DNA from: Trebouxia sp. TZW2008
Lineage: Eukaryota; Chlorophyta; Trebouxiophyceae; Trebouxiales; Trebouxiaceae
Reading direction: 5' to 3'
Length of the DNA: 64,000 bases
NCBI GenBank assembly: GCA_002118135.1
Contig: BDIU01000320.1
Coordinates: 49,720-113,719 of the forward strand
Both the position numbers and the translations under genes were made by a program. Position 1 is the stretch's first letter; each line of letters opens with the position of its first letter. Positions 17,101-62,167 of this stretch are shown here, one piece after another. A model generated the notes under the pieces. That model ran no database searches, had not been told where the DNA came from, and saw only the letters and a list, made by a program, of their open reading frames with translations.

Positions 17101-20100
17101 AGTTGCTCTAGAAATGCTCTGAAGCATTGAGACAATATGCTGCTGAGAACATTCTGCAAGCTTGCAGGTGAGCACTGCAGTGCAGATTGACAGATTCACG
17201 CATACGGCTGCAAAAGTCGCAGAATTTTCCAAACAGATCACAAAATGCTCAAAAGCTGCGTGTGGCAAGCAAATACTGCATGTGTGGTTCATGCCATAGC
17301 AATGCCAGCTGCTATGATCTAAAAACGAGCACTGTCCTTGCTTAGGCAAGACACAAATGCTAGGCAAGGGCAAGTGTCGATGAGATGGGTAGGCATGTAA
17401 AAATTAGGCAAGTGCAAAAGCTTACCTGGACTCTGTAGTAGACAATGCCCAGGGCAGCCACTGCCAAAATGATAGCAGGGGTGACAGCTGTGACCACTAT
17501 GATTGCCCCAAAGACGCTGATGCTGCAGGTCATGAAAGACTGCACAGAGTATGACACTGACGTGTCCACTGACTCTGTGTCCTTTGTGAACCTGCACAGC
17601 AGACCTTACATGAGAGCGCAAGTGGCTCGACATTTTCTTTACTGTCCCATTTAGCAGATTGGCGTTGTGCCATGCAAGAAGGCTTGTCAATGTGCTCTGT
17701 TGTGTGCTCTGTTGGGTCAGCAACTGTTGTAGCAGCTCAAAATGTGGGAAGCTTAAGAAAATAGTATACAACATGCAGGTCTCACTGCTGAATTGTTGTT
17801 ACTGTCAAAGTAAAGCTTGACCAGGCGCATTTGAGACCACTGTGCAGTAATCAGTCTGGGTTGTGAGGTGCGCAAACTGCCAACAGCAGAGATTTTGGTA
17901 GCAGATGCTCGCATGGGTGACAAACAAGCCACAAGCAATGCCAGCTGGAGCAGCTGCTATGTAGCATCGTGATTGCACGGCACCAAACACTGCACAGCAG
18001 CTGGTCCAGCTAGCATTGCTTGTTGCTGCTCTGTGCATTTGCGTGCAGGTTATCAAGTGTCACTTGAGTGCTGCAGCCCCGAACTTATTGAGCAGACGCC
18101 CTGTGGGCTGGCTATCAAAGAAAGCCATAGGCAGCCTCATAATCTTGGCCAGCAGCTTGGCATGCACTTGTATTGAGGCGTTGAAGGTGCCCAATACCAG
18201 CAGCAGTGCCTACTGTTGCTTGACAGATTTGCATGCAGTCCCAACCAAGCGGGCTTATACAAGGGCAATCAATGTTGCAGGCCCAACCTGTTGAGCAAGC
18301 GCCCAGTGGGCTGGCTATCAAAGAAAGCCATAGGCAGCCTCATGACCTTGGCCAGCAGGTTGGCATGCAACCGCCTTGAAGCATTGAAGGACCCCAGCAC
18401 CAGCAGCAGGGCTCTGCAGCCTTGCACTACAAGAGACAGCAAGCCCAGGCTGAAGTAGATGGCCATGTACTTGCGGCTGTCTAGGTGCTGGCCCTCTTGC
18501 TCAAGCCTTGTGGTTGTGTTGGACCAGATGCTCAACCACCAGTTCTGCCCAACCTGCAAAGCGAGCAACAGCCAAGTCAGCTTGCTTTTGTACGTGCACC
18601 AGCAGAGAGAGACAGCAAGCCCAGGCTGAAATAGATGGCCGTGGAGTTGCAATTGTATTGGTGCTGGCCCTGTTGCTCAAGCCTTGTGGTGGTGTTGAGC
18701 CAGATGCTCAACCGCCAGTTCTGCCCAACCTGTAAAGCAAGCAGCAGACAAGACAGCTTCCTTTCTTACATGCACCAGCAGAGAGACCAGCAGAGAGAGA
18801 GCGCAAGCCCAGGCTGAAAGAGATGGCCATGTACTTGTGACTGTCTGGGTGCTGCCCTTGCTGCTCTAGCCTTGTGGTTGTGTTGGACCAGATGCTCAAC
18901 CACCAGTTCTGCCCAACCTGCAAAGCGAGCAACGGCCAAGTCAGCTTGCTTTTGTACGTGCACCAGCAGAGAGAGACAGCAAGCCCAGGCTGAAATAGAT
19001 GGCCATGTATTTGCGGCTGTCTAGGTGCTGACCCTGTGGCTCAAGCCTTGTGGTGATGTTGGACCAAATGCTCAGCCAGCAGTTTGCCCCACATGCATAT
19101 CATGCAAAGGGTCAAGTTTAGATGCATACTATTTATTTTGCCAACTTCTTCTGCACATGGCGAAAAGTGTCTTTCTGCATGTGGCGGAAAGAACAAGCAA
19201 GCAACAAATTACATTGAAAAGAGAAGGTGACATTTGTTGCGAGCTGCTCAAGCCAGATGCCTTTACGATGACTCGCTGCGGCATGCAGTCAGATCACACA
19301 GCCTCATAAGTGATGATGACAGCAGCAGATGCGCACCTGCATAGCTCCTCTGAAGCCTGGCTACACGCCTTGTAATCAATGCAGCAGAGGCCAGCTGTGT
19401 GCACAAGCAAGTATGCAGCCTTCAATGAACCATACAACACGACAAGCTTCCATGCAAGATGCCTGGCAAACAGCAGATGCAGACCTGTAGACCCCTCTCC
19501 GAGGTGCCAAAGAGTATCATGAAGAGGGAAGACGAGGAAGAGGGAGCATGACACAAGCAGTATTAGGTCAAAGCGTGACTCACTACAACCCACAGCCATT
19601 CACAACGGCAGAGGAACAAAGCGCTAATGCTGCGCTGACAAAGACAGCAGGAATGACAACAGCAATAGCTATTGACCTGTAGACCCCTCTCAGAGGTGGC
19701 AAAGAGTATCATGAAGATGGGGATGAGGAACAAGGGCCCCCAGGCCGCCAGGTAGGTCCTGTACAAGCGGCGGTCCACACGCCCTACAGCCCTCTCCTCA
19801 GCCTTCACTAAAATCCCGACCTCCTTGCCCGCTTCCTGCAATGCCATAATTCTTGTGAAGGTGGACTTTCGTAACCTTAGCAGAGCATTCAGATTATGAC
19901 TTCTTGGTTGATTGTTGTACAATGCCATACCTGAAACACCAGCCTCCCTGCCCGCCTCCTGCAGTTGCTTGTGACATTTGAGTAGTTATTGCTTATTGAG
20001 GAGAAAGGAAAAGAAACAGACCGCCCTACAGCCCTGTACCCGCCTTGACCAACACCCATGACTCTTTGCCTGCTTCCTGCAATACATACGCCAAAGTAAG

Positions 20101-23100
20101 GCCTCACACGCACAGACAAAGGGTTTCCAGAGAGCAGCATGAGCCTTTAGAAGGCAGGAAGCAGATCAGTTTCACCATAGTCAGAGTCTACACGTCATCA
20201 CAGTGCATGCTACAAAAAGAGTCTTTTGCCAAGTAGAAGTGAGGTCTTCTCTAATGGGCCAAGGTCCTTATTGTGGCAAGCACTGCAATGAAGGCCTTGT
20301 GAGAGCCTTAATTCTGATTACAGTGTCATCGCCCAGACTGGACTGGACCGCCCAGCTCAGGGGGCCAGTTCAGTGAGAGCGGGCATGACAATGACGGCTG
20401 TTGGACACTAGATTGCCCAAGGTCATGTTGATTGGTCAGGTAAAAAGTTTACACCCTCCAGGTTGGCCTAGGAAGATTGTTTCGTCCGACACCTGAGGTT
20501 GAATATCAGGCATCTCTACAACAACGCTCAGAACAAGCCTGCCTGGCGAGACAGGACTGGGACCACAAACACCTGGCACATGTGCTGGAACATGTAATCA
20601 TCATCAGTGTTATTGGTGTCATGATCTGCTTCGTTGCCTGCTGCAGAATCATACTCCTCTGCAGCATAGAGTCAAGACTGCACTTCTCAGGGTGCCTCTT
20701 CAGATAGAGGCCCTTTATGACGCCTAACGGCGTAGCCTTTTCATTTCTTTTTAAGACCGCACTGCGCATGTTGCAACTGAGGGTGATGCCTGTTGCTTGT
20801 CTTGAGGTGAGCTAGACATTGCCCTTGGGGCTTTTCATCACTTGTGAGTCTAGAACTCAGACTGTATCACGAGTGCACATGTAATGAGTTTTGTTGGTCA
20901 TGATACATCACGTGCAAGTGCTTGACCTTTTGTTGGTCATGCAAGGCATGTGCACACACCTTTGCAGGTTTTTGCTCCTCATGGTCGCTAATCAGCTGCT
21001 GTGCCTCTTCATCTTCTTGATGAATGATGCTGGCGTCCTCCACACGCTCAGACAGACCCTCCTTGAGGACATGCCCGCTGCTGGTCTTTCCAGGCGTGTT
21101 GGGATGCAACAAGTTCACCATCTCTAAACTGTTCTCCTTGTTGCTATCGATGCTAGGGTTGGACCCGTCCTCTTCTTCCTCCACTATAGGGGGGTCCCCA
21201 GCATGGGCGTGGGTGACATGATCCGGGTCAGGGTCAACATCAAGCAGATTCTCTATGGCTGCCTCCCCTGCTCCGATGCCTGACATTGCAATCACAGTGA
21301 TGAGGTGATTCATCCTGTTCATTTTGCAAATGTTATGTTCTGGATATCTGGTCCCCTGACTTCAGTGCTTCAACTACCCTTCAAGGATGTTATGCGTGAG
21401 CTACCTGAAGCCTTCCCGCTGCTCTGCTCAGTACTCATACCGAGAGATTCTTATTGAAGAGCACTGATATGCCAGGCAACACATGCGCAGCGTGAGTGAT
21501 GACAACACACGTACAAGCTGCAGCCTGACAGGCTAGTCTTGCATGATCTGCCTAGCGTGCTCAACAAGAGGATGCTCACATCACACACGATTCTGAGGAT
21601 GAGCACATTTGGGGTCTGAGTACAGCATTTTCACAGCGAAGTGCCACAAGGGCAGACCATTGTACTGGAGCTGCGCTACAAACCTGCATCTATGAGGTCC
21701 AGGCCAGCATCAATGCCAACCTCCACCACATGCTCCACAGCAGCTTCCAGCCCCAGCAGACCTGTCTGCTCCTCACCTGCTGTCTCAGCCGCCATGGCAG
21801 CCGCAGCAGCAGCTTCCGCATCAAATGATGGAGATGCCTCAGAGTGACTGCTGCGCCTGGACTCCAGCAGCACCTGTTCCTCCTGCATACATCAGTGTTG
21901 TAAATATATATGACATATATATGTCATGTTCAGTTTCGCACTCCAGGAGTACCTGTTCATCCTGCATACATCAGTGTTGTAAATATATATGACATATATA
22001 TGTCATAGTCAGTTTCACAATCCAGGAGCAAGGGCTATGACTGACTCTTACCAAAACACAGCCGTCACATCTCACATCTGTGATTGGCTGCAACATTCAT
22101 TCAGCCATGGAAATGGTGAAATATTGCACTGTGGCCCATCAGTGTCAAGGGTCAGCAACAATGCTTATGCAAGCACCAGGAGAACTTCACAAGAGCCTAC
22201 GCCAACATTCATCTGAGCACAGCATGCAACTATAGCAACCATTGTGTCAAAAGGTTTAAAATTGCCATGATCAGGTCTAGTGTGCACCCGCATGATGCAT
22301 GACAACACGCATCTACAATAAACTCTCTTTGTAAGGACACTCAATGTAAGGACACTCTTGATGTAAGGACAACGCAGCTGGTAACCAATCACTGCTTGCT
22401 GACTGCAGTGGACCCTCTGAGTAAGGACAATTCGACATAAGGACACTGTTTTTTGGTAACCAAAGCAGTCATTACTTAGAGAGTTTACTGTACACCAAAT
22501 TTGCACACAACTAGCCATGCACACAGGCAAAGCTTACAGCTCACCTGCTGAGGGTCTGCAACAACAGCGCTGCGCTCAGAAGCTGAGTCACCAAGTTGAA
22601 ACTCATGGAAGTCCACACCCCGAGTCACCAACTCGCTGTAGCTGCCAATGTCGCTGATTGTGCCGTGCTTTACCACAGCCACCAAATCCGCAGCTGGCAA
22701 GTAGTGCAGCTGGTGAGTCACCAGGATCCTGGTCTTGCCAGCAAGCAGGCCACACATACAAGCGTCGAACAAATGACGCCCAACGTGTGCGTCGACAGCG
22801 CTGAGCGGGTCGTCTAGCAAGTATACGTCAGCGTCGGCGTAGCACGCTCGGGCGAGTGCGACTCGTGAGCGTTGGCCGCCGCTGAGATTGATGCCCTTCT
22901 CGCCAATCTCGGATTGGTCACCTGCTGCTAGCATCTCCAAATCTGTTCGTAAGGCACAGGCAGTCAGCACTGCATCGTACCTGCAGCATTTCACCTGCCT
23001 GTTGTTGCATGATGGGGGACTGGTCCTCACACGCATGTTGAATTTGCAAAATGCATTGTTGACCACTTTCAATCGGGGGGGCATAATTGTTTGCAAGGAG

Positions 23101-26100
23101 ACTGCTGTTGCAGTACACGCCTGCCATTACAGCACAGATGTAGCTCAGCCAGTCACTCAGCCAGCAAGGATGTTTGAAACCAGGTCTGGCCTTCAACAGG
23201 GTAAAAATATAGCTGAACTGCTGCACGTAAAGGGCTCTGCAGCACTTGATTGCCGACTGCAGATTGACACCAGATGCTGCAAGTAATGTGCAGCTGCATC
23301 TTGCTTACAGCTACTGACACCGACTGGCAGTCACAGCAAGCAAGGCACTGGGTTGAGACAAGGTGCAATGCCAACAGTCAGTACAGGAGCCATGGAAGAC
23401 TTGTCACTCTGCAAATGCCAGCAGTAAATCAGAGACAGGCATGGGAAGTCCCAGTCATGACAAGGACACAGAGACAGCTGGCGACAGTGATTGCAGCTTG
23501 CGTGAGGTCACAGACAAAAAGTGGTCATACCTGGCCTGGTCGAAGTCAGAGCCCATGAGAATGTTGTCCCTCAAGGTTGCATTTTGAATCCAGGGATCCT
23601 GTGCAGCATAGCCAGTGGAGCCTGCCACTGTGACTGTGCCTCCCTTGCTGTACATCTCACCTAGCAATGCTGCCAACAAACTGGACTTCCCTGCACACAC
23701 ACAAACCTATTCATTGTGAATTGTGCCTTTCTTGCTGTATGTCTCGAGCAGCAACTCCACCAAAGCTGTAGGTGGCAGCAGTGCTATGGCATCTGCAATT
23801 GCAAGAGCTGCAACATACTTGCAGCAGCTGACAACAGATGCCAAATCTTCGAGCCTGTGAATCAAGGAGACTAGCACGGGATCAATTTTGAGCTTACAAC
23901 TACAGCTGACCAGTCCAACACCATGATACACAAGCCGAGGACAGGCACAAATGCTGCTGCATCTGGTTCTCAGGCAAACCTCATGCTGACCATACCTGAG
24001 CCAACTTCCCCGACTACAACCAAGAGGCGGCCTGCTGGGATCTCAAAGCTGATATGGCGCAGAAGAGGAATGGAGTCTGCCTCCCAGGCAAAGCTGCCGT
24101 CCCTGATGACTACTGCTGGGCTGCCTGGGGCTGCAGGGGGGGTCAGCTGGGGGTGCCTTAGTTCCTCTTCCTGCACTCGTATGTTGTTTGGTGGTCTCAA
24201 TGCTAGAGCAAAGATCACAGCGCCACGTGTGCCAGGTGTGCATGTGTGACCCATCAGAGCTTGGTGCAGTGAGAATTGCAAATTGTCATGTTGGCCAGTT
24301 CAAGAGTGAGATCCTGTCATCTTGATTGCTGCAACGTCAGGCCAAGTACCAAACAAGACTGCAGCTTGCACTAGCATATCTGCCCTGAAAGCCATTTGTC
24401 TCACAGGAAGCATGATCTGCAGCCCTCACATGTTCCAAAGAGGCAAGCATCAACAGCATACGCAACATTCAATACATGCCACAGTTGCAAGACGTCCCTG
24501 TGCAGCGTGTACATGATGAAATGCATCTTCTGCAGCCCTTCAAGCGTTGCCAAAGGGCAAGCTTACAGTATGTCAGTTTTCCATGAAAGCAGCACGCAGC
24601 AGGCCAGACTGACCTGCATGTATTTCTGAATCCGGACCAACGCCACCTTTGCCGCAATGATGTTCATGATCTGATTTGGGAACATCATGACGGGAAATCT
24701 GAGCAAATTGAATAGCGCCAAAGCGGGAAACGCCACAGAGGCAGTCAGCGGGTAGCCAAGCAGGGTGAAGGCGCCAAAAGATGCCAAGGATACTAAAATT
24801 GGCCCGCCACCAAACATTATGGTGTTAAAGATCTGGTAGAAGGCGGCTTTGCGGATCATCCTTAGCTCAGCCTCTCGCAACTCGTTGATGCGGTCTATGT
24901 AGGGCTGCTCCCATGCATACAGCTTGATGGCTTTGATGCCTGCATGCGTACTCTGATGACCTCAAGTTTTATCCAGACAGAGTTTTCAGTTTGATTTCAC
25001 GGCGGCTCGCATACATGCAGCTTGATAGCGTTGATGCCTGCAGACACAGTCAGTTGAATGATGTACTTCTGTGCAGTGTAAGTGTTCCTGTATGCAGTGT
25101 GATTGTCAGGCTGCATATGCACGCAAATCTCTTTGATGGCGTCTATGTAGGGCTGCTCCCATGCGTACAGCTTGATAGCCTTGACCAGAGCCAATCTCTC
25201 ACTGCATTGAGTGGACTCCTGAAGTACGCAGTGTAGTCAGTGCAACAAATTGGGGCACGTATTGTAAGTAGATAAGTAAGCGTACCGCAGCAAGGCAGTG
25301 TGGGTCATCTTTAAGCAGAAGACACAACCTTCTTGACTGTGCTGCCATTACTTGTGACTTTGCTATTGCCCACAATAGCATGACTGCCATGCTGTGCGCA
25401 GTGTGATTTGTGTCAGGTAGCAAACAGGCAAACAGTAATCTGCTCTGAACGAGTGTCCTGAAGCGACTCTAAATACAAGTCCTGGAGCATTTCTGCTGTA
25501 ACTACTCACCAGTAATTAGTTCAGTGACAAGCTTGACTCGGTCATCTGTGCACTTGATAAGAGCCTTGCACACATTCCTAAGACAAGATACCACTGTTGT
25601 GATGGCAGTCAAGATAAAGGTGACAGTATCTCGAGTGTACACACAATCTTGCAAATGCTTGCCTACAGGAGCATGACTGCAATGCTGAAAGCCTCAAGCT
25701 CATTGCATGATGTACACAGGCAAACGTACGCGCTGCAGCAAACGCTTACCAGTGATAACCTCAGTGACAAGCTTGACTCTGTCATCAGTGCACTTGATGA
25801 GGGCCTTGCGCACATTCCTGAGGCGGCGAGACACCACTGTTGTGATTGGAACCAGAATGATGGTCACAGTCAGGCCAGCAAGAGCTGGCAAGACACCAAT
25901 GATGCGCATCAGAAGACCCATCACCACCAAAATCTGCAGCAGTCAATTTGGCCTCATTTTGTGCCAGATGTGCAGAGCGTGCTAAATGAGCAACAAGTCG
26001 CCCGTGGATGTAATGTCTGAGTGGCATTGCTTGCAATCTCAGTAGCTATCTTGGAGAAGCAAGATACACTTTTACATCATGACTGCACATGCAGAGTACA

Positions 26101-29100
26101 TATCAGTACCACGTGCAGCGCTTGACATCATATGTGCAACGTCACATGATGTGTAGCGCTTGATATTCAACTTGAACGAATTTGACCATCAAAGTTGACT
26201 GATTGCTGGCACAAGGCAAGCATGCGGTACCTGAAAGGGGCCTGACCACAGTATGTGGAGAAACTGCGCCATACCCCACAGTTTGGAGGCGTCATTACTC
26301 TGCAAGTTTACTATGGCCCCCACACCCATGCGCCCCTTCCCTGCTGCCGTGATGCGCAAACTTTTTCGATACAGCATGTCCACTAAGCTGATCTGCAATA
26401 GTAACCGCAATAACTATAATGATGGTTAGACATGATAATGTGAAGCAAGCAAGCAGCAGTCTACTTGGGCAAGACATGTCAATGAATCATGCGTTTTACA
26501 CAATGCTCAGCACAACATGTGCAGCCTTGGCCAGGTGTGCTGAAACTTGTCCAGGGGTCAAACAGGACCAAAGAGCAGCTGATGTCAGTAAATGCTGGCA
26601 TTCAGAATGAGCCGACCAAGCAGCACAAAAGAGCATATGCAAACTTGTTTGCAATAAGCGTACCTTAAGATGCAGTGCAATCCTGAACAGTATGTGGAAG
26701 TACTGGTTGATGGTGAGTGTCTCCAGAGTGTTGCTGGCGCCTAGAGCGACTGCCAAACCAAGACCAGTCCCTGCGTTCCAAGTGAAACAGATCACACAGA
26801 AGCAGCACGAAAGAAGAGGTGACACACCTTGACTCATGGGTACAATGCAGGGACTGTGTGCATGGCAGGCTCAAATGTATCTCAGTAAGCATAAACAGCT
26901 GGGAGCTGACACAAACCATGTGCAGGATCTGGCATGCTCAACAGTGTCATGCAATGGACACCCTAAACCATTCTGCAGCACTGGGCAATGATGAACAGAG
27001 GTGGCCAATTAACTCAAGCATGTCATCACCAGCTGCACTGCCACACATACCTGACTGCCTTTCATGGTCAGCTGCCCGGAACCAAAAGGCAAGTATAGAG
27101 GATTGCAATGTCACAATGTCAATGTGCGAACAGACAAAATGTGAAGACATACCAACTGAACAGACAAGTTGTGAATGGGACAAATCAAGCAAAGCATGCT
27201 TACAAGCTGGGCCGCCATTCTCAAGGAAGTTGAGCAGCTGCCCCAAGACATAAGGGCCCAGGAATATGACACGTTCATGCACCAGCTGGGCCAGACAGCC
27301 AATCACGACTTGCTGCCAGAGATTGAAGATACAACCAATATAGCTAACAAAAAGGGATAGCACGTATACTGGCTGTGCTGCCATCCTCCAGAAACTTGGG
27401 GAGCTTGACCAAACAGCAATTAAAATCTTGCAACCCCACAACACGCATCAAGCGATCGTGGCATGCTTGCAGGCTGTACCTCCATTCTCAAGGAATTTCA
27501 GCAGCTGTTCCAACATATAAGACCCCAGGAACATGACACATTCATGCACTAGCTTGACCAAACCCGCAACAGAGATGAAGCAGACAATCAATGTATACCG
27601 CGTGGCATGCTCAACAGCAGACAAGCTGAGTGTGCTTCAAGGGATGGTGAGCTCACAGGGTGTGCCTCCGTTCTCAAGGAACTTGAGGAGCTGCTCCAAC
27701 ACGTAAGTTCTCCAAAACATGACACAGTCAGGCACTAGCTTGACCACACCCGCAAAAAAGATGAAGCAGACAATCAATCTATACCAAGAGAAACAGCATG
27801 GCATGCCCAACAGCAGACAAGCTGGGTGTGCTTCAAGAGATGGTACGCTTACAGGGTATGCCTCCATTCTCAAGCAACTTGAGCAGCTGCTCCAAGACAC
27901 AAGGCCCCAGGAACATGACACAGTCATGCACTAGTTGACCAGGCCAGCAATCATAAATAGCTGTCAGAATCAAACATACAACCAGTGTATCAACAGGAAA
28001 GTATGTATGCATGAAAGCATGGCTTGCTTACAGGGTGTGCCTCCGTTCTCAAGGAACTTGAGGAGCTGCTCCAAGACATAAGGCCCCAGGAACATGACAC
28101 AGTCGTGCACTAGCTTGACCAGGCCAGCAATCATGAATACCCTGCCGTGCCGCCGCCATATGGCCTTCCATACAACACCTTGAGGGGCTGACATCAGGTT
28201 CACCGTTCTTTCCATCTCAGCTTGAAAGGCCTGTAGGCAAATGAATGCAGTTGTGGCAATTGATACAGGTGATAAACAGAGATAGTATGGTTTGCGACAA
28301 CTGCATCCTGCTATCAGCAATGAATACAGAAGTCCTCAGAATTGGAACTGACAGGTGATTAGTTGCCAGCCCACCCACAGAGTCACGCATGTGCTGTGAT
28401 TGTGCCGTGCAAGCCTTTGAGGATGAACAACACTTTCTGTTTGATTGCCCATTTTACAGCGGCCTCAGAGGTCAACACTTTTCTTTGTTTAGTTCAGCCG
28501 TTCATCAATGGGACATTTGCCTTTTCTTTAAGAAGAACGCTGTTCAGCTGCCTTTGGTTGCCGGACACATTCACCTGTGCTTTCAAGCCAGGAAGTCCAA
28601 TGAGTTGCTCTGGCTCCCTGCCCCTGACTGTAAATTCATTTGATCGATTGAAAGGCAGACGGCCCATTTTCCTGATTTGTGAGACACATGCGGGCTTGAT
28701 CAGTGCAGGCACACAGCTCAATGCCCTTGTCCTTGAGAGACATGTGGCGCTTGATCAGTGTAGGCAGACAACCCATTTTTCCTGATGGTTGCAGCTTGAT
28801 CAGTATAGGCAGACAGCTCAATGCCTTTTTCCTTGGGAGACATGTGGCACTTGATCAGTATAGGCAGACAGCCCATCTTTCTCATACCTGAGAGACATTT
28901 GGAGCTTGATCAGTGTAGGAAAGGTCCCAAACGTCTTCGGCATTGAGAGCCTTCTGCTTGCCCATTGAAATGAGGCCATTGCAGAAGGAGAAGAAGAGCC
29001 GTCCCCACATGCCAGCCTCCTCCTCAGGACACCAGCGCCCTGCAGGCCAGAGCTGTTGCCCATTTTCCGTCAGGATGTTAGTGTAGTCAAATCCAAGCAC

Positions 29101-30566: not shown

Positions 30567-30587
30567 GAGGGATGTTAATCTAACTTA

Positions 30588-50015: not shown

Positions 50016-50074
50016 CATAGAGTCATTACAAGCCACCAACGTAGCACAACTGCCAGCAATGCAAAATCGAGCCT

Positions 50075-50079
50075 TTACA
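50075..50079 (-). promoter_or_regulatory. TGTAA polyadenylation signal of the WD40 gene
   Basis: Minus-strand TGTAA about 330 nt after the WD40 stop codon; it lies past the candidate signal of the convergent gene only if transcripts do not overlap. Confidence 0.4.
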
Positions 50080-50406: not shown

Positions 50407-53400
50407 TCATCTGTATACATGCATTCTTCCACTTGCAGTACCAGCAGCCAGCACAGGCACAGAAGGATGCACACAATGTCTGGAAGAGATGGCTGTCTGA
50501 TGCTCACTGCTGAGCTGCACCATCTGGGCACCTTGGCTGTTGAAGACATCAATCTGCAGCAACCCATGCCAAAACTTGTGACAGCAGCGTACAAGCATGA
50601 CAGCACATTTTAAGCACTCAAGCTGTGAAAGACATCATTCTGCAGCAAGTCCATGCCAAGCAGTTTATGACAGCATATGTAAAGCACTCTGGCTGCTGGA
50701 TACATCAGTCTGCAGCAACCCAATGCCATGCTGAAGATCGCATCCAAACTTGACAGCACATGTAGCACAGATTACTATCTTTGCAGCAGATGGCAACTCA
50801 ACAGCCCTTGCATCTGTGGCAAAGCGGGCCCCTTGTCCAGGGTTTAGGGTAACCCCTCTAAAGCCTGGCCATTGCATCTGTGGCAAAGCGGGCCCCTTGT
50901 CTGCTGTGAATGCAGTACAACAACAGCAGCAGCAATTTGTGCAGCAGGTGTCAATGCTGTCCTGTTTCAGGATCCATAGGCAAGCATGACATGGACAGCA
51001 TTGCAGCAGATGCATAAGACAAGTAACAGAGACTGTCACCTAGGAAGCTCTCAACAGTTGCATAAGTAGAACAGGAAACGAAAGGAAAAGTCTACGCCGT
51101 TGGGCGTCATAGCGGGAGCCTCTGTCTAAAGAGGCAGCCTGGGATTGCTGCTGTCAAAGCAGCAACCAGCAAGCACCATTTACAACATGCCAAACGCAAG
51201 ACAGCTAAGCCAATGCCTCCAGACACTCCTCTGCCCAGAAATTCCTCTGCCCAAAAGTCTATCTCAAAAGCAAGGCGGCTAATGTGTGGGTTGTGTGGCA
51301 GATGCTATGGTCTGAGTCACGTGACCATTGAGCCTTGAGATCAAGGTAGAAAGGATACATACCGTCCTTTTCATTGAGCCACAAATGACTGTATCACTGG
51401 CAGGGCCCCAAACAGCCCTGAAGGGCACCACCCAGCGCCCTGTGTTATTGTAGTGCTTCATAGACACCAGCTCATTCAAGTCCTGCTTTGCATCCCAGAT
51501 CCTCAAAGTGTCATCTCGACTAGTAGACAGCATCCGTTGAGACCCTGCATGCAAAACCAAGCCTCAGCTAAGCTCGACCCTTGCAAACATTACGCAAACG
51601 GTGGCTGCAGCAGCAACAAACAATTGCAGTTGTTCAGTGGTGCTCCATGGACACCAGCTCATTCCAGTCCTGTGTTGCGTCCCAGATCCTCAAATGTCAT
51701 CTCTGCTGGTAGACAGCATTCGCTGAGACCCTGCATGCAACCCACAGCTTCCAGTCAAGCCCAACTGCTAGACACCAGCTCACTCGGTCCTGTTTTGTGT
51801 CCCCAGATCCTCAAGGTGTCATCTCTGCTGGTAGACAGCACTTGCTGAGACCCTGCATGCAACCCACAGCTTCAGTCAAGCCCAACTGCTAGACACCAGC
51901 TCACTCAGTCCTGTTTTGTGTCCCCAGATCCTCAAGGTGTCATCTCTGCTGGTAGACAGCACTCGCTGAGACCCTGCATGCAACCCACAGCTTCAGTCAA
52001 GCACAACTCATGGACACCAGGTCATTCATGTCCGGCTTGACATCCCAGGTCCTCAACGGGTGAATGCTGTTGATGGCAAGCGTGCGCTGAGACCCTGCAA
52101 CCAAATTCAATTCTCAGCCAAGCAAAGCTCATGGGCATCAGCTCATTCAGGTCCTGATTGTTTCCCGGATCCTCCAGGTGACATCTCTGCTGGTAGACAG
52201 TACGTGCTGAGATCCTGCGTGCGACCCAAGAGCCTCGACCATGCACATCTCTTCACGTTGCTTTGCAATGGCAGCTACAGCAGTAGAAAAGCTTGCATTC
52301 TTCTTACAACATCAAGAGCAACAGCAAGCAATACACATTAGCACTTTGTCAGGTGCAACACAGTTGAGTCCAGGCTGCTTTGGCTGAAAAGAGCTCCGGT
52401 CATGATGCTAAACAGCATACACTCAACTTTTCTCATCATTCACAACTCCTTTGTGCTTTGCAAAGGCAATATCACTGAGATCAACACAGTGAATCATCAT
52501 ACGTAATACTCAATACGCAAGATTTCAGAGTATTCAACACTGACGCGCAGTGCAGATCATGAAACACGCAATACGCTGGGGCCAACACATAGTGCTCAAT
52601 ACGTAAGTATCAAATAGTATTCATGATTGAGATGAAAAGTATGGTGATCGCTGGTTTAACACATACCGTCAGGTGCAAAGTAGGCGCTCTGGCAGGTGAG
52701 GGAGTGGGAGACGCTGCTGACGGGCTTGCCGCCTTGGCTCAGCTTGCGCACATCCCACACACAGATGCTGTTGTCACTGCAGGAAGTTGCCATCAAGTGC
52801 TCCTGCCCTGGCTCCACCTACAGCATACAACTCGCTTCAGAATACATATATAGGTCACACCAAGGTTGCACCAAAATTTTCACACACAGATGCTGTTGTC
52901 ACAGCAGCAGGTCGCCATCAAGTGCTCCTGCCCTGGCTCCACCTGCATAAAAAGAGACCTTTGATATAATGACAATTGATCCTGGGCTTGATGTTGGAAC
53001 AATGGTAGCGTGTGGATGGCAGCAGTATTTGCGAGCAAGCAAGGTCAATGCTTGCAATTCATAGCACCAAATGGTGCGTGTGTAGGGCACTAGTGTGGCC
53101 ACAATGAAGAGGAGGTCACATGAAGTTGAGGTTGTGCAGCTCAAAGCATGAAGCCTGTTGTTGTAGTACATGTATAGTACTGTACATTACGGTACAGTTG
53201 CAGTCTTAGCGCTGAGTCTGCACGTCCAGGGTCTTGCAATGCGAAGCATACGGTTAACACAGCTACATATGCTGACACTGGGTCACCCAGACGCATTGAG
53301 GTTGTCCAAGTCGGTACAGTCAGGCAGCCGCAAATGCCGATATTGCTGATTGCTGCAGCAACAATGACCACAAGCAGCAGCTTGGCAAGTGCAAAACCAA

Positions 53401-56400
53401 ACACTGGCCAGCAATGCTGACATGACGTGACTCGATATCATGCTGACATGGCGTGACTTCAAAGAACGATGCCTCGGTGGGAGATACAGAACAGTGTAGC
53501 AATACAAAGCCAACAATGCTCACCGTGACAGAGTTGATCTTCCTGTCATGGATATTGAGTGCAATGCAGCAGCGCAGGGCAAAGCGTCCACATTGACAAT
53601 ACTCACCTGACTGGGAATGATATCGAAGGCAAGGCAACAGCACAGGGCAAAGTGCTTACATTGATGGTGTTGATCTTCCTGTCATGGATGTTGAGAGCAG
53701 TCTGAGTGAGCTTCTTCTGCCTGGCATCAAAGCCTTGCAGGTTGCCTTCGTTATCCCCAACCCATCTGCAACATATGCCAGAAAAAGCTTGATTCTCATA
53801 TCCTTGCAGCATCACAAGTGTACACTCACTATCATACTGTCAGAGCAATTGCTGCAGGTTGCCTTCATTATCCCTCACCCAACTGAACCATATCTCAGAA
53901 CAAATCTTGGTTTCTAGTATGTCTACAGAAACGAGACTGCAACCACAATACAAACAAAGTCTTCAAGCTTGAGTGAAGTATGCAACGTAGATGTTGGTGA
54001 TGGGAAAGATGACAGCTTGCATAGATTGTTGGCTGATTCGACAAGCCAGGACGCATGGGCAGGGAACTCGTATGCATTGTCAGATGACTTGATGACCTTT
54101 GTCATCAGATGGGGCAGTCTTCACACTGGTGTCTCCAAGCTTGAGGCAAGTAAAGTAAGACACCAGGCTGATATAGCTGGCTCATGGGCAAAAGGTCCGT
54201 CAAAACACGGTGTTAGTTACAAGTAGTCGACTTTGGTTTATCTCACCCTGAGGTGGCATCAGCCAAGCAGTCCACAGCAGAATAATCTGCCTCTTCATCA
54301 GTCACCAGCAGCTCAAACACGGCTGTTGCAGGATCACTCGAAGGTAGTGTCAGCTTTTCAAGTTTTGCCGTTGCAATATTTATCCTGAGGTGGCATCAGC
54401 CAGACAATCCATGGCAGTATACTCTGCTTCTTCAACAGGCTCCACTGTTTGATGATCAAAGTGATCGCACACGCTTTTTGCAGGATTACTCTATGAGTTG
54501 CTCAGTCATCAGTGCATTGGCTTTGTAAGGCTCACCCTGAGGTGGCGTCATCCAAGCAGTCCATAGCAGAGTACTCTGCTTCTTCATCAGTCACCAGCAG
54601 CTCAAACATGGCTGTTGCAGGGTCCAGCATGCGCACTGATCCATCATAACTGGCTGTCAGCAGCTTAGTACAGCTGCCATTGCCACCGGCCCACCTGCAT
54701 GCATAGGTCATCACATGAGAACAGATTGTTTCTGCAAATGCATGACAGTGCAGTGTTTGACACTATGCATTGCCCCGTCATGACTGGCTGTCAGCAGCTT
54801 AGCACAGCTGCCATTGCCACCTGCCCACCTGCATGCATGATTGCAACATGTAAACAGACTGCATGTGGTACTGTTAACAGCAAAATGATGTATGATACGC
54901 AGGGTGGCCCAGGCGACCTAATGAGCGTGCAGCAGACTGACTAAGCCAAGAGGGTTTTGCAGAAACAAAATGGATGTCAGAACTGCAGAGGATTGCCAAA
55001 AGCAAGACAGTCACAGTGATGTGCAGCTTGACACATGTTGAATTGCTAGTGGGGGGCAGCATACGATTTGATAAAAATATGTCACAGTCTGCCAAGCATG
55101 TAAAAAGGCTACAAGCACAAAATCAGTCAGATGACAAGCAAAGGAGGGCAACAGAAAAGGCTGTTGTGCTAATGAGGTTCAGCAGCGCAAGAGGGTTGAA
55201 AGGAGTCCAAGAATTTGTCACTATCCGCTGCTGGCGGCAAAATGAAGTGCATCTGTCAATTTAGTGAGTGGCATTGAGGCAATGCTACCAAAAGCAGCAG
55301 AATGCAGATAGTGGGGTGCAGGCGTGCTGACCTGAGTTCAGCGATGTATTGGCAGCGGGGCACGCATGGCAGGCTGCACATCTTGTCAATTGACTGATTT
55401 ACATTGCTCAGTGCAGTAAAGTAGTAGAATGCAAATGCTGGCATGAAATTGGGCTGACCTGAGTCCTGAGATGTATTGGTAGTGGGGCGCCAGCTCCAGC
55501 ACACCGTCATCATCACCCTCATTCATGCTCAAGTCCTGCCCCTCACCCTTGTCTGCACACACAGTGCTGCTCAGCATGCACAGCATGCTGTCAATCGTTT
55601 CAACCTCGCTGCATAGCAACTGATATACTGCATCCAGCACACCCTCATTGTTTCCCCCTTTCATGCCCAAGTCCTGCCCCTCCCACTTGTCTGTGCACAC
55701 AGCACTGCTCAGCATGCACAGCATTCCCCAGCATGCGCAGTATGATCTCAAGCATGTAGCTGAATCCAGAACACCTGAACCTACGACGCTTTGGACTGAG
55801 CAAACATAATCCTCAGTAGATGCTACAGCAAAAGCAAGCTCAAAGTCACACTTCAAAAGCATGATGCACCACGACACCCTTCAAAGAGTATGAGTAGAGG
55901 TAGGAGCAGGAACAGGGGTAGGAAGAAATCAGTCTCAAACAAGCCAGCAAGCAGTGCTGACCTGTGTTGTCTCCTATGACAGAGTGGCCAGTCTCAGAGG
56001 CATTTGCAGCATCCTGCCCATTGCCCTGCCCCTGGTTCTCCTTGCTGGCTGAAGAAGAAGGGCCAGCCAGCTCATTGTCCACACTCCACAGGCCGATGTG
56101 GCCGGACTTGTCGGCTGCTGCCAGGATCAGGGTATCAGTACAAGGGTGAAATGCCAGATGCACAATGCCATTCTTGGTAACCTGCACCCGCATTTGGTTT
56201 GAGTTTTTAGTGCACTGGTAGATCGAAAGAATGAGGGTCCTGGTGCAGAGCTAGGTGCACTGTGCCATTCCTTGGGACCTGCACACCTGGTTTTGAGAAG
56301 TTGTTGGCTGCTGCTAGGATAAGGGTGTCAGTGCATGAGTGGAACGCACAATACCGTTCTTGGCCACTTGTGCACACATCCTGAGATTTGGATCTTTGCC

Positions 56401-59156
56401 GCTGAGGCAAGATGAGCTACAACAGGTTGTGGGCATGGTATGATTTTGGATCACCACAATGCATATATCTGGCGGATACAGATGCAGAATGTGGTCTTGG
56501 TCACCTGCAAACATGTTTACAAGAGGGTGTTGGTGCACGGGTGAAAGGCCAGATGCGCAATTCCATTCTTGGTCACCTGCAAACATGTTTACAAGAGGGT
56601 GTTGGTGCACGGGTGAAAGGCCAGATGCGCAATTCCATTCTTGGTCACCTGAAAACATACATTGAGTTCACGCTCTGAGGCATTTGACTCGTGCCATTGA
56701 GGCATGATCAGCTATGAAGTATCAGATGCACAACGCTACTCATGGACCCCTGCACCTATGTTCGCAAGAGGATGTTGGCTGCTGCTAGGATCAGGGTAGC
56801 GGTACAAGGGTCAAACGCCAGATGCACAATGCCACTCTTGGTGTCATGCACATGTATGTGGGAGACTCAAAGCAGAACAATGGAGGCAAGGTGAACTATA
56901 AAGATTCCAGTTCAGGTCATCAGAATTGGTCCCAGAGGTGTAGAATCTTGCAACAGAACCTAAATTTCGAATCTGCTGATGCATCAACGTTGCGCTATAT
57001 GCATGTACGATTGGACATGATGTCCAGCAAGGCCTTTGCAAAGCTAGCAAGAAGGAGAGATCCAAATGCAATGGATTGTAAGATAGCAGCACAGCTGCAG
57101 CTGCTGGAATGAGACTGACACAAATCAAAAAGCAGACTGCAGCACAGGGCAAACCTTAGCAACATCATTTTCCTGCAGGTCCAGCTTGCTTAGCTGCGCA
57201 TGGGTGGGGCGCTTGCCCTTGGCCCCAGCCCCTGTGACCAGGCTAGGGCCTGTCTGAGCCTTCAGCAGGTCTAGGAAGGCTGCATCACTGCCTGGGCGCC
57301 CGTTCAAGCTGCTGAAGTCTGTGCTGCCTGCATTGCCAAGCAAACAAATTCAGTTGAAATCTGTCACAGATGCCAAGTTTCCACATTTTCTGAACCCTAA
57401 TCGTCAGACCTTCAGCAGACCTAGAAAAGTTGTGCCAGTGCCGTCTGTTGAGCCAAATTGTGAAGCTTGAGCAGACTTAGAAAGGCTACGTCATTGCTGC
57501 CAGGCTGCTGAATTGTGTGCTGCTTGTTTAGAGTTGGATGAAGAAACAACAGCAGCTGCAGCAACAACAGCAGCTGCAGCAAAGACAGACTCACTAGATG
57601 GGCGACGCTCTCTGGGCTGAGCAGGCTCAGAGGGCTCAGCATGGCAAGTAATCTCTCCATTGACCAGAGTCATGTGCCCCCGACTAGCAATCTCTGAGGT
57701 GGAGCGAGAAAGGGGGGGGGAGGGGGGGGGGGGGAAACNNGGGGGGGGGGGGGGGGGGGGGGGGGGGGGAACACTTGCAAGGCTGGGCAAAGCAGTAGCA
57801 GCAGGTGCAGCAACAACAGACTCACTAGGAGGGTGACGCTACCTGCGTTGGGCGGGCTCAGAGGGCTCAGCATAGCAGCTGGCCTCCCCATTGACCAGGG
57901 TGAAGTGACCCCCTCAGATTTCTGACTTCTGGGGGTGGATGGGGACGGGGCACTCGGGTTGAGGTTGGTGGTGAAGAAGGGACGCTTACTAGACTGGGCA
58001 AAGCAGTGACAGCAGATGCAGCAGTAACAGACTTACTGGGTGGGTGACGCTCTCTGGGCTGAGCAGGCTCAGAAGGCTCAGCATAGCGAATGGCCTCCCC
58101 ATTGACCAGGGTGATGTGGCCCCCTCGGGTCTCAGTGTCCACTGCAGCCCCGTCTGCCTTGACCCCCCTCTGTCTTAGGCTGGCCCTCCTGGGAGCTACC
58201 TCCTCCTGTGTAGTCACTCACATGATCATTGTTGTTTGCATGAATGATGCACCTAGCTGGGCCATGAAAGCTCACTGGAGCGCATGCAAATGATGATGAT
58301 GATGATGCTACCAATGATTTGTCTACTGTGAAACGCCCCCATCCTGCCGCAGGCTGCACCTCCTTGGGGCCACCTTTTGCTCACACACAATTATTGAGTG
58401 AGTGAGTGTGTGAGTGAGTGGGTAAGTGAGTGCGTGAGTGAGTGAGTGAGTGAGCGAGCGAGTGAGTGAGTGAGGTGAGTGAGACTGAGTGAGTGGGTGA
58501 GTGAGCGAGTGTGAGTGGGTGGGTGAATGAGTGAGTGAGTGAGTGAGAGTGGGTGGGTGGGTGGGTGAGTGAGCGAGCGAGCGAGCGGAGCAGATTTGGA
58601 TGGTGTGAAGTTTTGCTTATGGGACAGTAACATAGGTATGCTTGATATCAGGCACTTGTGCTGTTGCTGCAGGGCAAGCTGTCAATCTATGCCGATCAAC
58701 ATCATGAGTCAAGGAAGCAAAGCAATGTTACAGTATTGACCTTGCAAACCCCGCAACACTACGCCTCATCAGATCTGACCAGTGATAGCAAGCCATGCAG
58801 GTTTAGCACTGGCTGTGTAAAGCAGACAGTAGATAAGCAAAGCCTTGACAGCTGCAAAGCCATCATGTCAAGGCAATTGCTCAGCCACACACACATGCAG
58901 CTTGGTGCAGGGTAGTAAACTCAGGACAAATGAGGGGCAGCAGAACAGCATCAGTCATGAGCTCAGGTTGCAGCGATGGTTCATACAGACTACTCACAGG
59001 TGCTTTGTGTCTCTTGGAGGAGATGCCTCTCTGCTTGGCAGGACGCGCCTCTTTCTTGGGAGCTACATTGTGCGCAAGGCTAGGTAGTTGGAGGGCAGCC
59101 ATACGCTCTCTGTTGCGTGCTATGTGCTCAGCTCTCTCCCTCTCATAGGCAGACAT
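50407..59156 (-). CDS. WDR76/CMR1-family WD40 protein
   Basis: Ten exons close in phase to 519 aa: 59156-58998, 58205-58037, 57327-57155, 56181-55962, 55552-55459, 54694-54536, 53765-53660, 52817-52667, 51544-51363 and 50553-50407. The N-terminus MSAYERERAEHIARNRERM matches the conserved opening helix of CMR1/WDR76 proteins, followed by a basic segment (PKKEARPAKQRG). WD repeats include AFHPCTDTLILAAADKSG, TASYDGSVRMLD, DNSICVWDVRKL, STSRDDTLRIWDAKQD, and the C-terminal HPSVPVLAAGTASGRMHVYR typical of the family. Yeast CMR1 and human WDR76 bind chromatin, respond to DNA damage and act with CUL4-DDB1; that role is inferred by family. The gene is stretched by large introns with many exon-fragment copies. 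Confidence 0.9.
50540..50735 (-). repeat. Upstream copies of the last WD40 exon start
   Basis: The acceptor and first bases of the last exon (real start 50553; plus-strand GACATCAATCTGCAGCAA) recur at about 50630-50650 and 50698-50725. Confidence 0.75.
51073..51141 (-). mobile_element. Retroelement-like 3' tail, copy 2
   Basis: The minus strand carries GACGCCCAACGGCGTAGACT followed by a T-rich run, preceded by a CCTCTTTAGACAGAGGC hairpin. It matches the element at 20690-20753 over roughly 60 bp. It lies in WD40 intron 9. Confidence 0.55.
51545..52235 (-). repeat. Five upstream copies of WD40 exon 9
   Basis: The real exon starts at 51544. Copies of its acceptor and 5' part, coding variants of RMLSTSRDDTLRIWD, start near 51729, 51851, 51971, 52092 and 52212. 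After the first gap (about 186 bp) the period is a regular 120-122 bp. Most have frameshifts. Confidence 0.88.
52885..52950 (-). repeat. Upstream copy of WD40 exon 8
   Basis: The 5' part of exon 8 with its acceptor (VEPGQEHLMATCCCDNSICV) is repeated upstream of the real exon (start 52817). It is open, and the homology stops after about 20 codons. Confidence 0.85.
53520..53905 (-). repeat. Copies flanking WD40 exon 7 on both sides
   Basis: The real exon is 53765-53660. Copies of its 3' end (NIHDRKIN and donor) lie downstream at about 53525-53600; a copy of its 5' end lies upstream at about 53850-53890. Confidence 0.75.
54240..54840 (-). repeat. Copies flanking WD40 exon 6 on both sides
   Basis: The real exon is 54694-54536. 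Copies of its 3' end (EEAEYSAVDCLADATSG) lie downstream at about 54245-54330 and 54380-54450; a copy of its 5' end (GGNGSCAKLLTAS) lies upstream at about 54778-54835. Confidence 0.85.
55320..55745 (-). repeat. Copies flanking WD40 exon 5 on both sides
   Basis: The real exon is 55552-55459. An upstream copy of its 5' part (DKWEGQDLGMKGGNNEGV) lies at about 55635-55700, and a downstream copy of its 3' end (CQYIAELR and donor) at about 55325-55355. Confidence 0.8.
56165..56845 (-). repeat. Upstream copies of WD40 exon 4
   Basis: The real exon starts at 56181 (VTKNGIVHLAFHPCTDTL). Upstream copies start near 56285, 56370, 56510, 56580 and 56845. Two adjacent units (about 56505-56640) are nearly identical 70-bp repeats, so this array was active recently. 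Confidence 0.85.
57390..57910 (-). repeat. Copies of WD40 exons 2 and 3 in intron 2, with G-run and Ns
   Basis: Two copies of the 3' end of exon 2 (TLVNGE, then AEPSEPAQPRERR) lie at about 57820-57905 and 57585-57670, downstream of the real exon. Degraded copies of the 5' end of exon 3 lie near 57400-57490, upstream of the real exon. Between them is a long poly-G stretch (57714-57770) with two unresolved bases. Confidence 0.8.
58396..58588. repeat. GTGA/GAGT microsatellite
   Basis: About 190 bp of imperfect tetranucleotide repeats (GAGT, GGGT and GAGC variants) in WD40 intron 1. It gives long spurious frames of repeated Ser-Leu-Thr-His on the minus strand. Confidence 0.95.
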
Positions 59157-59475
59157 CTCCTCAGTTTCCTGCAATTGCCATCACACTGATACATGACCTG
59201 ATGCCAAAGTTTGCACTGAACACCAAAAGTAGGCAGCTGAAGCACAGCCATACGCTCCCTATTGCGTGCTTGTGCTCAGCCCGCTCTCTCTCGTAGGCAG
59301 ACATCTCTTCAGCTTTCTGCAACCTCCATCACACCGAGTGGATGCATGACGTGGTGCCAAAATTTGCACTGTACATCAAAACTAGGCAGCTGAAGGGCAG
59401 CCATACACTCCCTGCTGCGCAGTATGTGCTGAGCCCACTCCCTCTCACAGGCAAAGATCCCCTTTAGTTTCTGGA
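59000..59475 (-). repeat. Two upstream copies of the WD40 first coding exon
   Basis: The real start codon is at 59156. Copies covering the upstream acceptor, start region and first 15 or so codons lie at about 59230-59320 and 59380-59470, in what should be 5' UTR or an upstream intron. They still show MSAYERERAE-like text in part. Confidence 0.8.
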
Positions 59476-60340
59476 ATCCTCATCACACGGTGCTGATGCT
59501 GCGCTGGATACCAATGTTGTGTCATGCACCAAGGATGCCAGCACATATTTCAAACACCAGAACATTGAAGTTGAACAAGAAAAGTTGCTGGGGAATGAGC
59601 TGCAGGGTGCAAACAAGCTCAAATGCCTTGCAGCATTGAAGGTCTGCAATGACCTGCAGATCATGAGCACAAGCAGATGGGCAGCTTGATGGACAATCAA
59701 GCACAGCAGTGACTTAAGGCAACTAGCAAGCAACTTAAACACTAGCAAACTGCCATGCAGGGGCTTGTCTTGCATTTGCAGCCAAACATTCGACTTGAAT
59801 TTACAACAGCATCTGCTGAAGCACATTTTCACAAGCTAGTAACAGCATGGCGGACAGAACGTGACGCAATCTGGTTCAGCGCTTGTCAGAACATCATGCA
59901 ACAAATGTATGTAGAGCTGCCGTCAACACAGCAATCAAATTGAGCCTGTGCAAAGAAGTCAGCTTGCTGGGGATACATAATTTTACATTGATAGCTTGAA
60001 TCACTGTGACTTGGCAATGTGAGGGGATGATATGAATTGTACACTCAGTAACTCCTAGCAAGACTAGCAGTTTTAGCCAATTGAATAGCACCCAAAGCAT
60101 GTGAAGACAACTGTTTGAGACTGTTATAAGGCCTTGCGACAAGAGGACAGCTGAATTGAAAGACCACCCTACCCGCAATGCCCTTGCAGTGTACACCACA
60201 CGTGACAAACTGTTCAAAACTTAATGAGATTATCAGTGTGACATACATAGCAATGCCTATACTGGCTCTGGAAACTCTGCCTGCCCACAACAAACTTCGG
60301 CACCACCCAATGAAGCAGTCTGCCCCGCCTTGAAAGCAAG
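59476..60340. other. Intergenic: WD40 promoter and zinc-finger gene 3' UTR
   Basis: About 860 nt between the duplicated WD40 start region and the stop of the next minus-strand gene. A minus-strand TGTAA at 59983-59987 suits the zinc-finger gene's 3' end. No gene recognised. Confidence 0.5.
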
Positions 60341-62167
60341 TCATTTTTTGGTGGACTTCTTTGTGGCTTTTGCTGGCTTTTGCTTGGCATCAGACTCAAC
60401 AGCTTTTGTGACTGGGGACTTAGGTTTGCATGATTCAGGGCGCACCACTGCTTTGTTGCCAATCTTAGGTTGCTGAGTGGTTGTCTCAGCATGCTCAGCT
60501 GCCTCCTCCTGCTCCTCTTCTTCCTCTGCATGCTCCTCATCCTCTTCCTCATCTTCTTCATCCTCATCCTTTTTAGCCTTTGCTTTGGCCTGCAAAACGG
60601 TCAGCAATGGTTGCAGTTCAGCCTGCTGACTAATAGAAAACATGCATTTGGCTCCTCAATGTGTCGCCTGAGACAAGCAGCCTGTCAAGCCAGGACTACG
60701 GTCACACACATCGAGCACTTGTGCCAGCACGTGCATCAACTGTTTTGAGCGGTGATTACATGCCGTTTTGTACTTCTGGGAAGGAAGAAGGGTGGGCTGC
60801 TCAGCTGGGGCAGGATTGCCAAGCTGTGGCAGATCATGTGTGTTGCAACGTTCAAAGATGCTCATGCGCACACTTGCAAAGGCCACACACCGTCTTGCGC
60901 TTCTTGGCAGGAGGGGGCGAGGGCTGCTCAGCTGGGGCGGGGTGCTCCTCATTGTACGTCTTAGCCTCAGCCGCTTTCACACCAAACTCCTTGAAGTACA
61001 CATCCCGATCATCTTCCCGCAGATCTTCCAGGCCCTGATAATCAAATAGGCATTTGATTTGTCGGTTTCTGTGATTTCACAAAAAAGGGAACACAAAGAA
61101 ATATGAACCACTTCTTGAATTTCACAGGAAAGAAAAGAAACGAAGTATAGACCGCTTGAACGCAGTCTCAAATTGCTTGGCACCTGTGCTGACATGCTAG
61201 ATCATGCGTCAATACTTGTGCACTGTACGCAAGACAGCTGAGCTCAGCATGAGAGCTGTCTTGCAGGTTAAACACATGGAAAATCATTCACCAGCTCACA
61301 TTGTGAGGCAGCAGCCAGAGTACAGACACACACTGAGGCCAACAAGGCTGAGATCAGCAATAACAGGGTGCGTGCAATATGAGAGGCAATGCAACAGAAA
61401 AGAACAAAAATGTCTATGCCGTTTGGCAAAGTTGAGAGGCCATGGGATAAACTGTGGCATCCCTCCTCTTCAAAAGCAGGGCAATGCCGTATACATCATT
61501 ATCAGGCATGTCTATGCTGCCACAATACCTTGAATGAGAGCAAATCAAAGTCAGATGCCTCAGCTATCACAGGCTTCAATTCTTCAGCAGCAGATGCAAC
61601 ACTCAGCAGAATCCGTGAGCCCTTGACTGTCATCACAAAGCGCAGGTCTCCCTGCAGGGCACTGATTGTTATTTCTCGATGTTGGTTGCCCAAGTCCCAC
61701 CGCTGCCATTCATATGCTGGGGTGCATAAGCTCCGCGTACGACAGTTTACCTTGGAAAACTTGAGGCCTGTTTTCTTGTCTGCTCCAGTGTTGGTCTTGC
61801 TGTACTCCAGGCTGCAGCCTTGAAGGAATGGCACGACTTTCTGCAACGAATGCAGCTGTTTGCCAAACTATTCGGTGACATATGCTGACTGACTGAAAGG
61901 CTACATTCACAAAGCAGCAGTTTGCAGCAGCTTAGGCCTACACACGCTTGCATTTGTGTGTATGCATCCAAGACAGCAGACAGGGCTTGTTCAAAGGTGC
62001 TGCAGTGTCAATACCTGCCAAGTCATCGTAATATGCCCACCAGAGTATGCCTCGACACCAACACGGTGCTCGCCCTTCTCAATTTTCTCCCCTGTGGCTT
62101 TGCATGTGCTTCGATTTGACTTGGCGACGTCAAGTTTGACAATGCTGCGGGGGCCTTCCTCTGCCAT
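60341..62167 (-). CDS. PARP-type zinc-finger-like protein with acidic/basic tail
   Basis: Five phase-0 exons (62167-62015, 61840-61751, 61702-61529, 61034-60891, 60589-60341) give 269 aa. The N-terminus reads VAKSNRSTCKATGEKIEKGE, the hallmark opening of a PARP-type zinc finger (nick-binding in PARP1 and DNA ligase 3). The usual second Cys of the C-x2-C pair is absent and no H-x2-C is visible, so metal binding is doubtful. A second block (EYSKTNTGADKKTGLKFSK) resembles another degenerate half-finger. Residues about 82-138 are a beta-rich domain of unknown type. The tail holds PAKKRKT, a Glu/Asp run and a Lys-rich end (KATKKSTKK), suggesting a nuclear, chromatin-linked protein. There is no catalytic PARP domain. 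Confidence 0.75.
60760..60960 (-). repeat. Downstream copy of zinc-finger gene exon 4 end
   Basis: The 3' part of exon 4 (real end 60891; coding PAPAEQPSPPPAKKRKT) has a degraded copy downstream at about 60775-60825 that still reads NPAPAEQPTLLPS in one frame. Confidence 0.75.
61391..61440 (-). mobile_element. Retroelement-like 3' tail, weak copy 3
   Basis: The minus strand reads TGCCAAACGGCATAGACATT followed by a T-rich run, a degenerate match to the blocks at 20716-20753 and 51076-51110. Lies in intron 3 of the zinc-finger gene. Confidence 0.4.

Follow-up and report, generated by a model that had tools for sequence, protein, structure and literature searches.

On contig C302 of the Trebouxia sp. 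TZW2008 assembly (68.5 Mb in 527 contigs; PMC11523091 describes published Trebouxia genomes of 63-74 Mb with a GC content of ~50%), a 64-kb stretch of DNA, hereafter the window (C302:49720-113719), carries genes for RRM, SCI1-like, Tra2-like, ABCC, golgin, OEP24-like and zinc-finger/WD40 proteins. In the last four of these genes, the ends of exons recur as diverged partial copies in the neighbouring introns. Self-alignment of the window places such a copy near 22 of 79 hand-edited exons, in line with an initial annotation that had counted at least twenty exons with partial tandem copies in adjacent introns. Of these 22, at least three are questionable: 34028-34095, counted as an exon, is probably itself a copy, 57910-58205 adjoins a poly-G run, and 36854-37237 is not in frame within the edited chain.

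The gene models come from a gene-finding hidden Markov model (HMM) trained on the window and five 40-kb blocks from other contigs (six blocks, 264 kb in total), a self-trained model that used neither RNA nor annotation and that learned strong splice signals, with donors CAG|GT(A/G) and acceptors TGCAG|G. Within the window the exon list was edited by hand, and the last three WD40 exons, missed by the HMM, were taken from the sequence. Nine WD40 exons, 57155-57327 through 50407-50553, give one open frame when joined; exon 55775-55822 of the same gene has no counterpart in five aligned relatives and may not be a real exon. In the edited chain of the ABCC gene, and in places in those of the golgin and zinc-finger genes, the frame does not read through, at least partly because small predicted exons were omitted, and exon ends there are less certain. 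Left out of the count of 139 exon-copy relations given below were exons shorter than 40 bp, copies of which another predicted exon covers more than 50%, and pairs separated by an intervening exon; high-scoring segment pairs belonging to one array are not independent in that count.

Copies accompany 6 of 21 exons in the ABCC gene, 5 of 18 in the golgin gene, 1 of 5 in the OEP24-like gene and 10 of 17 in the zinc-finger/WD40 gene. None of the 18 exons of the RRM, SCI1-like and Tra2-like genes has one, against 22 of 61 in the other genes (Fisher p 0.0019), and these three genes had indeed been described as lacking arrays. Duplication density as a whole differs strongly between the region of these three genes (1698-11886) and the remainder (14199-62160).

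Five exons, all on the minus strand, have copies on both sides, as had been reported for ABCC exons 13 and 14 and three WD40 exons. ABCC exon 13 (18288-18553) is preceded in its upstream intron by an array of three copies of its 5′ part with a unit of ~176 bp (18554-19117, minus strand) and followed in its downstream intron by a copy of its 3′ part that includes the donor (18069-18209, minus strand, 84% identity). For ABCC exon 14 (19677-19835), one copy lies upstream at 20022-20083 and one downstream at 19482-19539. The three WD40 exons are 53660-53765 (upstream copy 53853-53912, downstream copy 53517-53563), 54536-54694 (upstream copy 54767-54838, downstream copies 54242-54335 and ~54384-54444, the latter taken from the sequence) and 55459-55552 (upstream copy 55633-55724, downstream copy 55250-55361).

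The remaining copies that we list lie on one side of their exon, on the minus strand except in the OEP24-like gene. In the ABCC gene, the 3′ part of exon 25750-25933 has a downstream copy at 25505-25627, and the 3′ part of exon 28032-28230 is repeated in a downstream array at 27187-28031. In the golgin gene, the 5′ part of exon 32487-32653 recurs in an array with a 165-bp unit (32714-33139) and that of exon 38186-38407 at 38553-38831; the large golgin exon also contains an in-frame 75-bp tandem repeat (39539-39778). The 3′ end of the OEP24-like exon 48747-48914 has a downstream copy at 48967-49024 (plus strand). WD40 exon 51363-51544 has its 5′ part copied five times at intervals of ~121 bp in 51637-52222, and a 93% identical copy of the first 62 bp of exon 52667-52817 lies at 52881-52947, its similarity ending at the splice site. 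The 5′ part of WD40 exon 55962-56181 recurs four times at 56301-56851, two of these copies belonging to a 72-bp tandem array (56495-56658) whose 98-99% identity places it among the youngest in the window. Finally, an array (~150 bp) repeats the 5′ part of zinc-finger exon 58998-59168 at 59230-59499.

These structures are real tandem duplications. With local repeats defined by an offset below 2 kb, the window holds 64 local direct repeats and 1 local inverted repeat (E<=1e-4), and the six blocks together hold 360 near direct and 37 near inverted repeats. Third-order Markov sequences of the six blocks gave no local direct repeat in 18 runs against 371 observed (E<=1e-3), and chance is therefore excluded. 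Identity in the window's exon-copy alignments is 70-93%, and the copies are thus too diverged to be assembly duplicates. In the six blocks, the near junction is reached or crossed in 132 of 139 exon-copy relations, the far junction in 2 and neither in 5, so the statement that copies always keep to their own side holds for nearly all cases and fails for these few. Acceptor-side copies lie upstream and donor-side copies downstream, arrays run head to tail, and 125 of 188 testable junction-copy pairs, acceptors and donors together, extend into the intron by more than 15 bp, which supports the description of the units as tandem duplications that straddle exon-intron boundaries. Among 106 exon-containing nearest pairs, 45% align over at least 85% of the offset and 55% over less, and simulated decay yields similar shortening. 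The copies of exon ends in neighbouring introns, and the geometry that the initial annotation gave them, are confirmed.

The duplications are genome-wide, and the window is ordinary for its genome. Local direct repeats number 10.0 per 10 kb in the window and 4.2-20.5 per 10 kb in the five other blocks, and they cover 14% of the window and 7-31% of each other block. The extremes of density are block C237 (4.2) and block C203 (20.5). Over the 264 kb, repeat coverage is 0.207 in exons, 0.176 in introns and 0.292 outside gene models, the last class including genes missed by the HMM, such as a TPR-like coding stretch recognized by eye in C203. On the 5′ side of introns of at least 400 bp, coverage stays flat at 0.12-0.18 over the first 500 bp; the ~350 bases on each side that lie deeper than this have a coverage of 0.

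A mutational process that targets splice junctions, for example through R-loops or breaks, and sets one breakpoint at the splice signal could also generate such copies, and the initial annotation had raised a mechanism centred on splice sites. The self-alignment that it proposed as a refutation, carried out over the 264 kb, finds no significant excess: 173 of 732 junctions lie inside duplicate blocks, against 153.7 ± 15.7 by rotation, a ratio of 1.13 that 12% of rotations reach. No clear preference of the duplications for splice sites was thus found. Tandem arrays with a period of at least 20 in the six blocks divide by internal match into 3 at >=95%, 28 at 85-95%, 31 at 75-85% and 8 below 75%; of the three best-matching arrays, a small sample, two are intronic, one is outside genes and none is at a junction. 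What speaks for junction targeting is where the alignments stop. Alignment runs more than 15 bp past the near junction in 85 of the 139 exon-copy relations, stops between -12 and +15 bp of it in 47 and begins deeper in the exon in 7. The cut-off share is 47/139 (34%) overall, 22/31 (71%) at an identity of at least 85% and 25/108 below, and in high-identity examples similarity is lost within 2-10 bp of the junction. A first simulation, which derived the age of each pair from the identity of that pair, yielded 9.4% splice-site cut-offs; the observed share is 31% of 113 junctions.

The junction-specific process suggested by that simulation was rejected; age had been drawn from pairs already selected for detectability, and a version aware of age fits. 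In this second simulation, random straddling duplications were made, the intron copies and the exon copy were left to decay while the exon was held, and the same BLAST threshold was applied (220 runs per divergence). Cut-offs made up 12, 27 and 51% of all pairs at neutral divergences of 0.12, 0.16 and 0.20, and 43, 92 and 94% of pairs with at least 85% identity (n 21, 13 and 16); at 0.16 they made up 23% of pairs below 85%, and at divergences of 0.03-0.09 only 5-8% overall. The observed shares are ones that a mixture of ages could produce under this model. Since the age-aware simulation reproduces the cut-offs, a junction-specific process is not needed, and we regard junction targeting as unlikely.

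The same pattern of ends bears on gene conversion, which in old straddling duplications could keep the exon part similar while the intron parts saturate. The similar blocks stop at the splice signal; within them identity is 85-93%, the intron parts resemble each other little, and the composition upstream of copies is acceptor-like (0.16 against -0.51 for intronic TGCAG, p 0.0018), findings that fit conversion. It becomes superfluous, however, once ascertainment is modelled, and the copies within arrays diverge from one another alike in their exon-derived and intron parts (0.185 and 0.208); we give conversion a chance as small as that of junction targeting. The same two divergences do not support faster evolution of introns as the cause of the cut-offs, although copy-copy alignments have gap columns 2.4 times as dense in their intron part as in their exon-derived part. 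Templated insertion of exon pieces was likewise rejected, as exon-internal copies make up 5 of 139 relations and the contexts upstream of copies are acceptor-like.

We therefore favour, with a probability of roughly three in four, ordinary tandem duplications of 50-300 bp that are random with respect to gene structure, mostly purged in exons, tolerated across junctions and visible longest beside conserved exons. Short head-to-tail duplications (~50-300 bp) would arise throughout the genome, blind to gene structure, presumably by replication slippage or unequal exchange. Those within an exon would alter the protein and mostly be lost, survivors tending to stay in frame; offsets of in-exon repeats in the six blocks are divisible by three in 14 of 18 cases, 8 of the 18 coming from one exon. 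A duplication that crosses a junction would leave the mRNA intact if the splice site beside the full exon is used; copies from the acceptor side would therefore come to lie upstream and those from the donor side downstream. Random tandem duplication, together with selection on the protein, accounts for this geometry. The copy would then decay as non-coding DNA while purifying selection holds the exon, so that exon-copy similarity would outlast intron-intron similarity and an old duplicate would seem cut at the splice site. The apparent anchoring is thus most likely due to exons ageing more slowly than introns.

Several observations, besides the shortfall of the first simulation, weigh against this reading. 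In introns of at least 400 bp, coverage drops about twofold with distance from the acceptor, being 0.18-0.20 in the nearest 150 bp and 0.08-0.09 at 350-500 bp. Clusters that combine exon and intron sequence are in excess (96 against 74.7 ± 5.5 by rotation, 1.29-fold), and intron-only clusters are short in number (9 against 19.8 ± 4.0). Detection bias can account for both in our simulations, which recover 81, 32 and 6% of intron-only duplications and 98, 94 and 83% of straddling ones at neutral divergences of 0.12, 0.16 and 0.20. Intron-intron similarity beyond the splice signal is small even in pairs of 85-93% identity, 63 short pairs giving a mean z of 0.63 and 1.12 in two tests, and the spacers showed no specific match to either flank (mean z 1.52 on one side and 1.48 on the other). 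In alignments with both kinds of column, exon-intron columns do not clearly exceed intron-intron columns in identity (39/68; means 0.819 and 0.808; p 0.17). Some pairs are very similar for their inferred age, such as 54531-54624 with 91% over 94 bp, and in high-identity cut-off pairs, with 39/570, 39/577 and 110/571 mismatches at the three codon positions, the 2.8-fold third-position excess is not fully explained. The simulations, moreover, treat single duplications rather than arrays, the age-aware one at set divergences rather than with a fitted mixture of ages, and the gene models are self-trained without RNA.

Whether the copies serve as alternative or mutually exclusive exons can also be judged from their decay. 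Of 189 copies, 140 retain an intact AG or GT (decoy AG in 86/105, decoy GT in 54/84), and mismatches are more frequent at third than at second codon positions, as might be expected of exons in use; yet 107 of 111 exon-copy gaps are not divisible by three and would break the frame (1/39 divisible in the cut-off class and 3/72 in the rest), and the copies inspected are partial exons with a single splice site. Mismatch rates at the three codon positions are 0.152, 0.139 and 0.239 in exon-intron columns and 0.156, 0.159 and 0.224 between copies, a pattern that fits non-coding copies and an exon changing mostly at silent sites. From the proportions of intact AG and GT it follows that the decoys are neither cleared nor strongly kept, and we infer that they are ignored in vivo. 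Nor do the related proteins that were aligned contain the copies. The WD40 protein is 79% identical to that of Trebouxia sp. C0006 and 76% to that of C0010. Five relatives aligned from 120 matches listed (two Trebouxia, Apatococcus, Myrmecia and one partial), mostly gene predictions rather than RNA, have no extra sequence across the copied junctions covered, and none carries a duplicated exon. MRP1 aligns through the junction of ABCC exons 14 and 13 without insertion. Use of the copies as exons is accordingly very improbable.

Tandem duplication is a major proposed source of new introns, for which proven cases are few. In the model of Rogers (1989, as cited in PMC4974935), an intron is gained by tandem duplication of an exon segment containing AGGT, and cases in Drosophila are described in PMC2891723; the Trebouxia duplications resemble these in being tandem, in coding genes and beside AG|GT. 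The initial annotation had seen AG|GT junctions as special in this respect. They occur at 55 of 366 acceptors, a frequency of 0.150 where base frequencies predict 0.153, and at 10 of 60 acceptors with copies and 45 of 306 without. An intron made in this way should have its donor and acceptor flanks in register. Flank similarity above the 99.9th percentile of the null, where 0.4 introns are expected, was reached by 7 of 366 introns in a gapped test, which favours the model, but by only 1 of 366 in an ungapped one. In block C86, the intron at 13121-13294 comes close to being in register, with a repeat offset of 177 and an intron length of 174. Of the eight top introns inspected, two are flank overlaps in introns of 43-47 bp, three, the C86 intron among them, adjoin predicted exons of 3, 7 or 12 bases, and the remainder are weak or out of register. 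No convincing in-register intron from an AG|GT duplication was thus found among the 366 introns tested and eight inspected, and many copies lie deep within introns, which makes the making of new introns here highly unlikely; the special role proposed for AG|GT is not supported. On this evidence, the duplications lengthen introns rather than make them, and in this the Trebouxia genes differ from the AGGT cases, where introns arise.

Two further systems invite comparison. In the potato RdRp gene, according to PMC4974935, an intron was gained by tandem duplication of the 3′ part of an intron and the 5′ part of an exon; there, as in Trebouxia, the duplication crosses an acceptor junction and carries splice signals along, but the Trebouxia copies sit in an existing intron and no new intron is shown. 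Introners, characterized in PMC9860276 as dispersed elements that create introns, also amount to repeated sequence within introns, whereas the Trebouxia copies are local and gene-specific. Among 69 matches within the window, one is distant and direct and four are inverted, so no introner-like sharing is found at this scale, the copies not having been searched for genome-wide. The titles and abstract openings listed in literature searches contain no report of this pattern in Trebouxia, and the word 'tandem' does not occur in the available text of PMC12712428 or PMC11523091.

Young duplications are scarce, either because the duplications as a whole date from a past wave or because young repeats were collapsed in assembly. 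It is possible, though we hold it only tentatively, that the Trebouxia lineage bears an exceptional load of small tandem duplications from such a wave, with a decoy junction beside about one in seven junctions (113 distinct junctions of 732). If so, it would offer a natural experiment both on the way in which splicing ignores duplicated sites and on the frequency with which straddling duplications turn into introns. Duplications internal to genes are reportedly common, even ubiquitous, in the picture drawn by Gao and Lynch in 2009, which the Trebouxia duplications resemble; local direct repeats here cover 7-31% per block at the thresholds used, and the comparison is one of description only. 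With many junction-straddling duplications of varied age and several sequenced sister species, the route to introns would become measurable. There is also a trap, in that old random duplications seem anchored to splice sites because exons keep their sequence longer than introns do.

The OEP24-like gene takes its name from the initial annotation; a single Pfam scan of that gene returned nothing. Trebouxia proteins match 100% of the length of its chain, the best named relatives being those of Trebouxia sp. C0005 (86%, whole protein) and C0009 (80%), and a further match of 97% over 88% lies on a 960-base contig. Scans of the window for tRNA and Rfam families at gathering scores were empty. The zinc-finger/WD40 gene contains a 58-base G run (57712-57769) and a TGAG microsatellite (58395-58585); the window contains 2 N, and the predicted protein of this gene has one unreadable residue in a proline run.

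Separate from the exon copies is a dispersed element of ~176 bp, present at 22314-22492 (plus strand) and 16063-16240 (minus strand) and bounded by terminal inverted repeats of ~21 bp (TACAGTAAACTCTCTTTGTAA), which we take to be a miniature inverted-repeat transposable element (MITE)-like sequence. Scoring 40 of 1449 first-look candidates gave at least 45 matches to it in the genome, its own site among them. All eight of its matches within the 264 kb, some of them partial, lie within predicted introns, in both orientations.

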